Assembly (NCBI GenBank): GCA_001723845.1
Contig: MCBE01000217.1
Location: 1-60,809 of the forward strand
DNA length: 60,809 nucleotides
Direction: 5' to 3'
From: Candidatus Altarchaeales archaeon WOR_SM1_SCG
Lineage (GTDB): Archaea; Altiarchaeota; Altiarchaeia; IMC4; WOR-SM1-SCG
Position numbers and translations under genes: made by a program. Below, piece by piece: positions 12,736 through 60,809 of the stretch. The notes beneath the pieces were generated by a model. The model saw only the letters and a program-made list of their open reading frames with translations, had not been told where the DNA came from and searched no databases. Each line of letters begins with the position of its first letter. Position 1 is the stretch's first letter.

Positions 12736-13866
12736 ATGGCACTAATTGATATATTAAAGGAACCTTGGAATCTACTTAATAAACATTCGGCGGTAGGTGT
12801 TTTGATTGGGATAGTGGGTGTTTTGGTAGCGATTATCTCGCTTGTCCTATACATATTGAATAGTACACCAATAGATCCAATTTATGCTACAAGCCCATCG
12901 GAACTAATAGCAAAGACAGGTGAGAATGCTCCTCGCATGACTATCCTATGGGATGGTTCAGAAGTTTCAGATGTTAGGTCTGTAAAAGTTGCCTTTTGGA
13001 ATTCGGGGTCTGAATATATAGATGTCAAGAATATTCCAAAAGATAATCCAATTCAATTTGTACCTTCAGAAAAAGTTGAAATACTATCTGTAGAGTTATT
13101 AAAGTCAAGTAGGGAAAATTTGAAATTTAACACTTCAATCAAAGATGACTCAACATTGGGGCGACAAGTAGTTCAAGTTGACATTGTGGGTGATGAGGCG
13201 ATTGAACGACTGGATGGTGGGCTTTTTAAAGTCTTGTATACTGGAAAAGAAGAAAATGTTGAGTTTTCTGTAAATGGACGCATAAAAGGCGCACCTGAGG
13301 GGTTTAAGAAAAAGGATTGGAACGAAATTCAAAGATCTAAATTTATTAATTTTGGCTTTAGTTTTGTTGCGGGTATTTTTGCTATAATTGGTATCTCTTG
13401 GTACATTATTAGCCCACTTAAAAACGAAATAGAAAAGGGGTTGGATTTGTTTAGCTGGGATGATGTCCCTGGAAACGATAGTGAACACATGATAGAATTT
13501 TTAAAATATGATATGAAAATAGAATGGGTGGAAAATGCAGAAATCAAAAAAAGCGATGATGACAAAGTCATAACTGTTACAAATAGAGAGAACTCCATCG
13601 CATTCAACCTTAAAAAAGAAGAAAACAAAGTAACTCTGAAAATCAATGGTGTGAAGAGTCATGAATACATTTTGAAAGAAGATAAAGGTAATCTAAATAT
13701 ATACAATGATTTCTCTCTTAAAAACATTAGAGATGATCAGGACACATTCGGAAGATTATTGATATCTGCCCTAATATTATTATTTTTCATATATTTATCT
13801 GGCTCAAATATTATTGAATACTTTCATTATTTGGACATTCCCACTTGGCTTATTCACTTGGTATAG
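12736..13866 (+). CDS. Membrane protein carrying the mobile 86-residue domain
   Basis: 376 residues, no known family. A membrane segment at about 20-40 is followed by a probably extracytoplasmic beta-rich part (about 45-200), a second membrane segment (about 205-227), then the 86-residue L-F-S-W...L-N-I-Y module at 238-323 on the other side, and a final membrane segment (about 339-356). The module also occurs in the gene at 41106 and inside the transposase at 59790. The gene is the last cargo item between the two RuBisCO 5' ends. Function unknown. Confidence 0.7.
   Translation: MALIDILKEPWNLLNKHSAVGVLIGIVGVLVAIISLVLYILNSTPIDPIYATSPSELIAKTGENAPRMTILWDGSEVSDVRSVKVAFWNSGSEYIDVKNIPKDNPIQFVPSEKVEILSVELLKSSRENLKFNTSIKDDSTLGRQVVQVDIVGDEAIERLDGGLFKVLYTGKEENVEFSVNGRIKGAPEGFKKKDWNEIQRSKFINFGFSFVAGIFAIIGISWYIISPLKNEIEKGLDLFSWDDVPGNDSEHMIEFLKYDMKIEWVENAEIKKSDDDKVITVTNRENSIAFNLKKEENKVTLKINGVKSHEYILKEDKGNLNIYNDFSLKNIRDDQDTFGRLLISALILLFFIYLSGSNIIEYFHYLDIPTWLIHLV
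13447..13704 (+). repeat. Mobile domain, copy A (86 codons)
   Basis: Codes for L-F-S-W-D-D-V-P-G-N-D at its start and G-N-L-N-I-Y at its end, with E-N-S-I-A and Y-I-L-K-E-D-K-G in between. One predicted helix is followed by about six short beta strands in hairpins. It has the same length as copy C (60393-60650) and is one residue shorter than copy B (41562-41822). Confidence 0.85.
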
Positions 13867-41105: not shown

Positions 41106-42038
41106 ATGTACAATGAAGATGAAAAACCTATAACAAAGGATTTTAAGATAGGTGAGGAAACTTACGGTCTTGTTTTGACTTTGAGCAACGATTATTCTTA
41201 CATTGAAAGAGATTTTGATAAGTTAAAAAATAAAATTGAAAAATATGGGGGTGCAAAGATTATATGGGTGAACTCTCTTTTTGGCATACAAGACTCGGTA
41301 ATTCTTCTACGCGCAACAGGAGATATGGACAAAGCAGTACATGTTTTTGATGAATGGGTCGTTACCAATTATAAAAACGCTAAAACCCCTGCAATTCCTT
41401 TACCATTTAAACATCTTAGTTATACTGCGGAAAAAGATATGTTAGAAGATGTGTTTAATGCGATAGAATCGCCTAAAAGCGTTGCAAAGTTTGGTCAAAA
41501 AGATCCTAAATTAGGATATGTAAATATTATGGGGGAGTGGGGAAGAATGACAAAGAGATATTTATTTAGCTTGAATGAGCTATCTGGAGAAAACAAAAAT
41601 CAGTTTCTAAAATTCATTGAGAAAGAGTTAGACATACCTGTAGCGAAAAATCCAAAAATCATTAAATCTGATAACAAGGAAATAATTATAAGGGATGATA
41701 AAAACTGGATTAACCTTAAACTTGATATCAACACAGATGAGAAAAAGATAAATATAACAGTCTCTGGCGGAAAAACTTATGAATACGTTTTAGAAAAAGA
41801 AAGTGGCAAGCTAAACATATATACAAAAGGTGAAATAAGGAAAAAATTTGAAGTTTTTGAGTACTGGGTAGATCCACTAATTCCTATTTTTGTTAATGAA
41901 CCGATATTAAAAGAAAATAATTCTCCTTTTGTAATAATCTATTTGAGATTTGATAAAAGAAAGGGATACTCTTTAAAAGATACGTATTCTGCGTTTAACA
42001 CTCATGAAAATCTAAAATCTATGGACTTTTGGAAATGA
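41106..42038 (+). CDS. Unknown protein containing the mobile domain
   Basis: 310 residues with no recognised family outside residues 153-239, where the 87-residue mobile module sits (L-F-S-L-N-E-L-S-G-E-N to K-L-N-I-Y). The N-terminal 145 residues are mixed alpha/beta (L-V-L-T-L-S-N-D-Y, V-I-L-L-R-A-T-G-D), and the C-terminal 65 residues contain F-V-I-I-Y-L-R-F-D. The module is internal, so either it was inserted in frame or it links two halves. Second gene of the operon. Confidence 0.6.
   Translation: MYNEDEKPITKDFKIGEETYGLVLTLSNDYSYIERDFDKLKNKIEKYGGAKIIWVNSLFGIQDSVILLRATGDMDKAVHVFDEWVVTNYKNAKTPAIPLPFKHLSYTAEKDMLEDVFNAIESPKSVAKFGQKDPKLGYVNIMGEWGRMTKRYLFSLNELSGENKNQFLKFIEKELDIPVAKNPKIIKSDNKEIIIRDDKNWINLKLDINTDEKKINITVSGGKTYEYVLEKESGKLNIYTKGEIRKKFEVFEYWVDPLIPIFVNEPILKENNSPFVIIYLRFDKRKGYSLKDTYSAFNTHENLKSMDFWK
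41562..41822 (+). repeat. Mobile domain, copy B (87 codons)
   Basis: Same helix plus beta-hairpin pattern as copies A and C: L-F-S-L opening, then I-I-K-S-D-N-K-E-I-I-I, K-K-I-N-I-T-V-S-G-G-K-T-Y-E-Y-V-L and G-K-L-N-I-Y. The W and P-G-N-D of the opening are replaced by L and S-G-E-N, so this copy is the most diverged. Confidence 0.8.
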
Positions 42039-59789: not shown

Positions 59790-60809
59790 ATGGAACTAAC
59801 AACTAAAGAAATAATGGCAATAAAACCCTACATTGAAATCATTAGAAAAAAAGGTAGAATGCCTCAATATACTCTTGTAAGAAAAAAACGGGTAAATGGA
59901 GAAGTAAAAAGAGTGTGGAGTAAGTATCTGGGCACAGCAGAAACGATCGAGAAATTCTATAAAAACTGTGAAGAATGCACTGATATGAAACTCAAAAGTT
60001 TTGAGTATGGAAGAACGGCAGCACTAATGAAAATAGCAGAAGAACTAAATTTTGTTGAGATCGTAAATAAACACACAACCAAAAAGAAGATTGAAGGGCT
60101 GACAGTTGGTGAATACATGCTATTGATTATCCTTAGCAGAGCCGATGAACCAATAAGCAAAAACGGAATCTCCGACTGGTTTGACGATTCTTTTCTCGAT
60201 TTAATGTGGGTATTTTCGCACAAACTGAACACTCAAAATTTTACGAACCACATGGATTATCTCACAGATGAAGTAATGCGAAAAATCGGGGATGACCTGG
60301 GAAAAAGACTTGTTGAGCTTGGTGTGGCACCAACAAAGTTATATATTGATATGAGCAATGTCTTCACATATATGGAAAATGGGGGAACGTATTTGTTTAG
60401 CTGGAATAATATTCCCGGAAACGACAGCAAGCGACTCATAAACCATCTTTTGGATAATCTAAAAATAGGTTGGGTAAAAAACGCAACAATCAATAAAAAC
60501 AATGACTGTAAAATAATAACAGTTACGGAAGGGGAAAACTCAGTTGAACTAAAACTTAACGAGAAAGAAAACAAAGTAGTCTTAAAAATCAGTGGCGGTA
60601 AAACCTATGAATATATCTTAAAAGAGAAGAAGGGTAAGCTAAAGGTATACGGCGGGGAGATGCCTAAAAAAGGTAGGGGTAAAGAGAAACGATATGATAA
60701 AAATATAATCGGCATAGGAATAGTAACAAGTGATGAAAACATCCCAATGCTTCACGAGTCATATCCCGGAAACAAGCACGATTCACAAATATTTGCCGGG
60801 ATTTTTATG
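59790..60809 (+). CDS. IS1634-like transposase, 5' part, with the mobile domain inserted
   Basis: 340 codons from ATG 59790 to the window end, no stop. The N-terminus V-W-S-K-Y-L-G-T-A and later G-L-T-V-G-E-Y-M-L match IS1634 transposases. L-Y-I-D-M-S-N-V-F-T-Y-M contains the first catalytic Asp (residue 187), and G-R-G-K-E-K-R-Y-D, P-M-L-H-E-S-Y-P-G-N-K-H-D come from the second-Asp region. Between them residues 202-287 are the foreign 86-residue module. The frame is intact, so the host protein may still be made, but the spacing of the catalytic acids is altered. Confidence 0.85.
   Translation, partial: MELTTKEIMAIKPYIEIIRKKGRMPQYTLVRKKRVNGEVKRVWSKYLGTAETIEKFYKNCEECTDMKLKSFEYGRTAALMKIAEELNFVEIVNKHTTKKKIEGLTVGEYMLLIILSRADEPISKNGISDWFDDSFLDLMWVFSHKLNTQNFTNHMDYLTDEVMRKIGDDLGKRLVELGVAPTKLYIDMSNVFTYMENGGTYLFSWNNIPGNDSKRLINHLLDNLKIGWVKNATINKNNDCKIITVTEGENSVELKLNEKENKVVLKISGGKTYEYILKEKKGKLKVYGGEMPKKGRGKEKRYDKNIIGIGIVTSDENIPMLHESYPGNKHDSQIFAGIFM
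60393..60650 (+). repeat. Mobile domain, copy C (86 codons, inside transposase)
   Basis: L-F-S-W-N-N-I-P-G-N-D opens it and G-K-L-K-V-Y closes it, with E-N-S-V-E-L-K-L and Y-E-Y-I-L-K-E in the same places as copies A and B. It is flanked by G-G on both sides (E-N-G-G-T-Y before, Y-G-G-E-M after), which may mark the insertion joint. Confidence 0.88.

Follow-up and report, generated by a model that had tools for sequence, protein, structure and literature searches.

The protein module that recurs in the window (the whole stretch analysed, 60,809 nt from Candidatus Altarchaeales archaeon WOR_SM1_SCG), here called module A, is read as a non-autonomous archaeal transposon of the MITE type that is mobilised by IS66 and has become fully translatable, a "transposable protein domain", with a probability of roughly 0.88. 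The original prediction was of a genetic element that moves from one coding sequence to another and leaves them intact; the spreading was borne out by terminal inverted repeats, an 8-bp target duplication and empty sites, and we infer that the host proteins stay unbroken and active. The present analysis goes beyond that proposal in recognising the element as a transposon by its inverted repeats and its duplicated target, and in pointing to IS66 as its probable mover and to a second module with the same ends.

Three homologous copies of module A were confirmed in unrelated open reading frames of the window, all on the forward strand. Copy 1 (60389..60650, +; 262 bp, a G followed by 87 codons) lies inside an IS1634-family transposase (59790..60809, +) that is cut off by the contig end; copy 2 (13443..13704, +) lies in a membrane protein (12736..13866, +) for which Pfam gave nothing above the cut-off; and copy 3 (41558..41822, +; 88 codons) lies in a protein of unknown family (41106..42038, +). 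Identity to the copy at 60390 was 55% for the copy at 13444 and 38-40% for that at 41559, with E-values in the own genome of 3.5e-26 and 1.8e-10, respectively, from a search with one sequence and of 2.3e-39 and 1.7e-29 from a profile search. The lengths of 86, 86 and 87 codons first given for copies 1, 2 and 3 had to be revised, as the true start is slightly earlier, at YLFSW, and the translated units span 87, 87 and 88 codons (60390-60650, 13444-13704 and 41559-41822); the mobile DNA unit consists of the translated unit plus one base before the first codon, which in copy 2 is GAT instead of TAT. The left terminal inverted repeat of copy 1 is an exact GTATTTGTTTAGCT (60389..60402, +), its right repeat (60637..60650, -) is diverged, reading AGCTAAAGGTATAC on the + strand against a family consensus of AGCTAAACATATAC, and the right repeat of copy 3 (41809-41822) has one mismatch. 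The target duplications of the window copies are individually diverged: GGGGGAAC (60381..60388) and GGCGGGGA (60651-60658) around copy 1 match at 4/8 positions, which is weak alone, and the flanks are 5/8 identical for copy 2 (AAGGGGTT / AATGATTT) and 6/8 identical for copy 3 (ACAAAGAG / ACAAAAGG).

The anatomy of the element emerged from the family as a whole. The commonest form of module A is 262 bp long with 14-bp terminal inverted repeats, GTATWTGTTTAGCT; the left end of the 138 full copies reads G TAT TTG TTT AGC TGG and the right end ...CTA AAC ATA TAC, with synonymous positions in the end codons biased toward the inverted-repeat sequence (ATA for Ile, TAT for the first Tyr). The inverted-repeat pattern gave 13-51 matches per Altiarchaeota genome, compared with 0-2 for a reversed control. 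Flanking positions -9..-2 and +1..+8 matched each other above shuffled pairs with z = 12.7, all other registers having |z| < 3, and position -1 showed no match across the element, so the leading G belongs to the element; since 262 + 8 = 270 bp, an insertion adds exactly 90 codons. Perfect or near-perfect duplications were seen at loci L010, L155, L144, L085 and L031. Sixteen non-coding elements with the same ends were found between genes or at a gene edge; their lengths vary, and the reading frame would be kept in six of them. Terminal inverted repeats, a fixed 8-bp duplication and autonomous elements with the same ends were all recovered, and module A fits the testable parts of the MITE definition. 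Non-coding MITEs of 100-325 bp with these ends, often with perfect 8-bp duplications, lie between genes or at gene edges in Altiarchaeota genomes (L210-L222, L224, L228).

The autonomous elements belong to the IS66 family. In Methanoperedenaceae, complete elements of this family share the module's ends and are flanked by perfect 8-bp duplications, namely one of 1615 bp (L331) with GTATTTGTTTAGCT, the left end of the module, at both ends and the duplication AAAAAAAC twice, one of 1466 bp (L332) with GATTTTTT twice, and one of 1464 bp (L282/L333) with GCCTTATT twice; an 8-bp target duplication has been reported for IS66 elements such as ISPpa5a and ISPpa7 (PMC3281130). IS66 fragments also adjoin similar repeats in ANME-2 and ANME-1, but six of the nine Methanoperedenaceae IS66 loci have no such ends, and thus only some IS66 lineages are candidate movers. 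A search of the own-genome assembly found no complete IS66 element, only a fragment at the end of contig C53. There, 60 bp into a module copy that is identical to the one in the window, the repeat GTGTTTGTTTAGCT has been inserted with an IS66 C-terminus behind it (37 aa aligned at 51% identity, E 2.6e-9). Module A shares both ends and duplication length with the complete Methanoperedenaceae IS66 elements (PF03050), but it encodes no transposase, and the protein-coding sequence between its ends is unrelated to theirs; an IS66-type transposase most likely moves it in trans. IS630 was considered as a mover and rejected, as the IS630 element at L209 is bounded by ends of its own with a TA duplication, and 23 IS630 loci were without module ends. 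The L209 element itself is nested within a 1381-bp inverted-repeat non-coding MITE (L209:1969-3349, contig C3 of G028).

By sequence searches, the own genome (300 contigs, 74% complete) contains 25-26 matches to module A, corresponding to ∼20 distinct copies, every one of them in an open frame, and many more occur in other archaea. A profile search of GTDB species genomes recovered 93 encoding stretches, in ANME-1, ANME-2, Methanoperedens, Methanosarcina, Methanothrix, Altiarchaeales and one cyanobacterial MAG. The four Altarchaeum genomes (G025-G028), representing one other genus in the same class as the window organism, had 10-17 matches each, only three of the 23 further genomes in the order to which the window belongs had any match, and 33 of 34 Methanoperedenaceae genomes had between 1 and 29. 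Close pairs across phyla, such as an ANME-1 copy (L027) and an own-genome copy (L007) with dN 0.15 and dS 0.48, suggest horizontal spread. A viral route was unsupported, as a search of viral contigs yielded no relative. Phage-tail-like operons (baseplate J, Tail_P2_I) of several archaea repeatedly carry the module (L046, L069, L076, L078, L104, L105); L104, from a Pseudanabaenales MAG (JAKSDM010000612.1; GC 50%), holds a divergent copy of the module in a baseplate-J-like gene, and this cyanobacterial copy may reflect either a real transfer or a binning error.

Sites with and without the module were found in closely related genes. The N6-methyltransferases L014 and L170 (70% identical) are reciprocal, either one bearing a module at a position that is empty in its partner, the PRPP synthetase L171 has a module where L141 has an empty site, and further filled and empty pairs are L172/L145 vs L153, L161 vs L169, and L078 vs L076; in CDC48 the module occupies one site in ANME-2 (L035, L036, L042) and another in Methanoperedens (L100). 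The clearest case is the RadC gene L155, in which a second copy is nested in an older copy with an exact 8-bp duplication, GCAAAAAA, and the orthologues L140 and L169 (87-89% nucleotide identity) have the older copy uninterrupted. Nested copies were also found at L011, L074, L079 and L146/L151/L162.

All 138 full copies of module A lie in frame inside open reading frames, none has an internal stop, and all of their lengths are divisible by three, including those of copies with indels; a decayed partial copy (L150) does have stops. In each of 1512 usable pairs dN/dS was <1 (median 0.38), with values of 0.12-0.5 for same-site copies in related genomes, so that module A is under purifying selection. 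AlphaFold predicted, with high confidence for copy 1 (pLDDT 95.2, pTM 0.84), a compact alpha/beta fold of two helices and six strands, in which a short first strand (residues 3-4) and the last strand (83-86) suggest that the termini are adjacent; a model of CDC48 with its module was of low confidence. Searches of Pfam and NCBIfam gave no significant family match, leaving the module nameless in both, and Foldseek against the PDB returned nothing significant; the best hit, frataxin (E 0.054, TM about 0.4), was too weak a likeness and was set aside. Literature searches, whose coverage of subscription papers was mostly lacking, found no description of the module.

These features suggest how a MITE could come to behave as a protein domain. 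Translation would turn the 14-bp inverted repeats into the conserved YLFS... and ...LNIY termini of the peptide and the interior into the compact alpha/beta domain, so that insertion in one of the six combinations of phase and orientation would add 90 codons, keep the frame and leave the host protein bearing the module as an extra domain. Forms of the MITE that were translatable and self-folding would have survived inside genes and other insertions would have been lost, with out-of-frame and intergenic copies purged or decayed and in-frame copies trapped, as a host gene would be disrupted if the copy in it decayed. Essentially no intergenic copies of the coding module were found, even among young copies, although some would be expected to remain after random transposition and subsequent decay, and the restriction to in-frame sites is therefore not fully explained; purging and decay offer the simplest reading, in which strict in-frame occurrence would reflect selection, and benefit to the hosts is the main rival.

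According to that rival, the module is a useful domain, for interaction, localisation or regulation, kept because host proteins benefit from it, with transposition supplying copies and positive selection for function keeping the frame. The in-frame occurrence in 138/138 copies, purifying selection at fixed sites, the conserved fold and the retention of same-site copies across species are all as it would expect; however, selection merely to fold without harming the host yields the same signals, module-free orthologues are common, copies nest within each other, and the identified hosts, including PRPP synthetase, CDC48, Cas3, methyltransferases, S-layer, rhomboid, RadC and tail proteins and the IS1634 transposase, have no common theme. 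We regard host benefit as unlikely, though the strongest of the alternatives. Removal of the element after transcription or translation, as for an intron or intein, so that host proteins never carry it, would account for modules within or beside catalytic domains (methyltransferases, IS1634, CDC48), but a spliced element needs neither lengths in multiples of three, nor freedom from stops, nor dN/dS well under 1, and the ends YLFSW and KLNIY, with no Cys/Ser start and no His-Asn end, agree with the earlier observation that intein ends are absent; we consider removal highly improbable. An ancient domain shuffled by ordinary recombination, with no transposition, could be imagined from some copies whose position in orthologues has long been unchanged, as in Methanosarcina proteins (L044/L051/L063/L082), but it is contradicted by 8-bp duplications at a single register, by exact empty sites, and by inverted repeats common to non-coding elements and complete IS66 transposons, and we give it very little credence.

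The host of copy 1 matched the IS1634 model NF033559 of NCBIfam with E 2.4e-20 and 73 bits, a score short of the curated threshold of 100, in line with the IS1634-like assignment of the original prediction; the gene is split by the module and shortened by the contig end at 60809. The motif LYIDMSN before the module probably contains the first catalytic Asp. Host alignment revealed an IS1634 relative without the insert, the 66% identical transposase L148, and the joints bear the 14-bp inverted repeats and the 8-bp duplication described above; matches to Rhodococcus (bacterial) IS1634 end just before the module. The least credible of the alternatives, that the module is an IS1634 domain that spread outward, has in its favour an identical copy in the multicopy IS1634 transposase of the own genome, but is contradicted by the empty site in L148 and by the Rhodococcus matches, and the other identified hosts are not IS1634 transposases. 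In the window and five other own-genome contigs (C19, C41, C46, C281, C292) an identical stretch of ∼790 bp lies upstream of the module, and each of the six ends in the identical transposase copy, as is expected of a multicopy IS; the IS1634 of the window is a multicopy IS with recent activity, and the module now travels with it.

A second module, B, of ∼68 residues with the ends YLF...KLNIY, has the same inverted repeats as module A, and the two modules have no evident sequence similarity yet share IS66-type ends. Examples are L227:949-1144 (G000:C33), L223:1727-1933 (G000:C241), L010 and L038; there were 14 matches in the own genome (G000) and fewer in Altarchaeum and ANME-1. Its 8-bp duplication was detected with z = 4.5, with a weaker z = 3.0 at another register, the set being small. 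That module B shares both the ends and the 8-bp rule argues for a general element class over the peculiarity of one sequence. A protein conserved in Altarchaeum (475-488 aa; L139, L152, L165, L174) opens with an A-like and then a B-like module, which may be an old insertion that became fixed, or else a source.

The nearest precedent for module A, as selfish DNA residing within protein genes, is the Rickettsia palindromic elements (RPEs), described as bacterial elements of ∼150 bp, nearly half of them in open reading frames (Ogata et al. 2000, 2002, in review PMC10969869). By that description, RPEs and module A are both short mobile repeats, in frame in unrelated genes, with a conserved peptide that is apparently tolerated by the host; module A differs in its length of 262 bp, its globular 87-aa domain, its occurrence in several archaeal lineages and the location of all full copies in open reading frames. 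Module A further differs in having defined inverted repeats, 8-bp duplications and a probable mover, IS66; to our knowledge, no mover of RPEs has been recognised. ERIC/RU and the QMITE of Coxiella (PMC2759123, PMC5896051) are likewise non-autonomous elements with terminal inverted repeats, but in-frame fusion is occasional in these, whereas in module A it is the rule and its product is a conserved predicted fold. PARCEL repeat-coding elements (PMC2996958) resemble module A in that DNA coding for a protein domain has spread both horizontally and within genomes; they consist of tandem 25-residue repeats with DNA dyad symmetry, and a single inserted domain with a target duplication is not among the features given in the abstract.

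For annotation, this means that a module nameless in the family databases searched is present in many archaeal proteins, CDC48, PRPP synthetase and Cas3 among them. Module A and its relatives may represent a class of archaeal transposons that is selected mainly for the folding of the protein it adds and survives by being harmless when translated in almost any protein, a view toward which we lean slightly. The full anatomy is visible, comprising ends, duplication, probable transposase, empty sites, predicted fold and selection, and the idea of transposon-built protein domains is thereby directly testable. Given at least two modules, the class of transposable domains may be a general and continuing source of new multidomain proteins.
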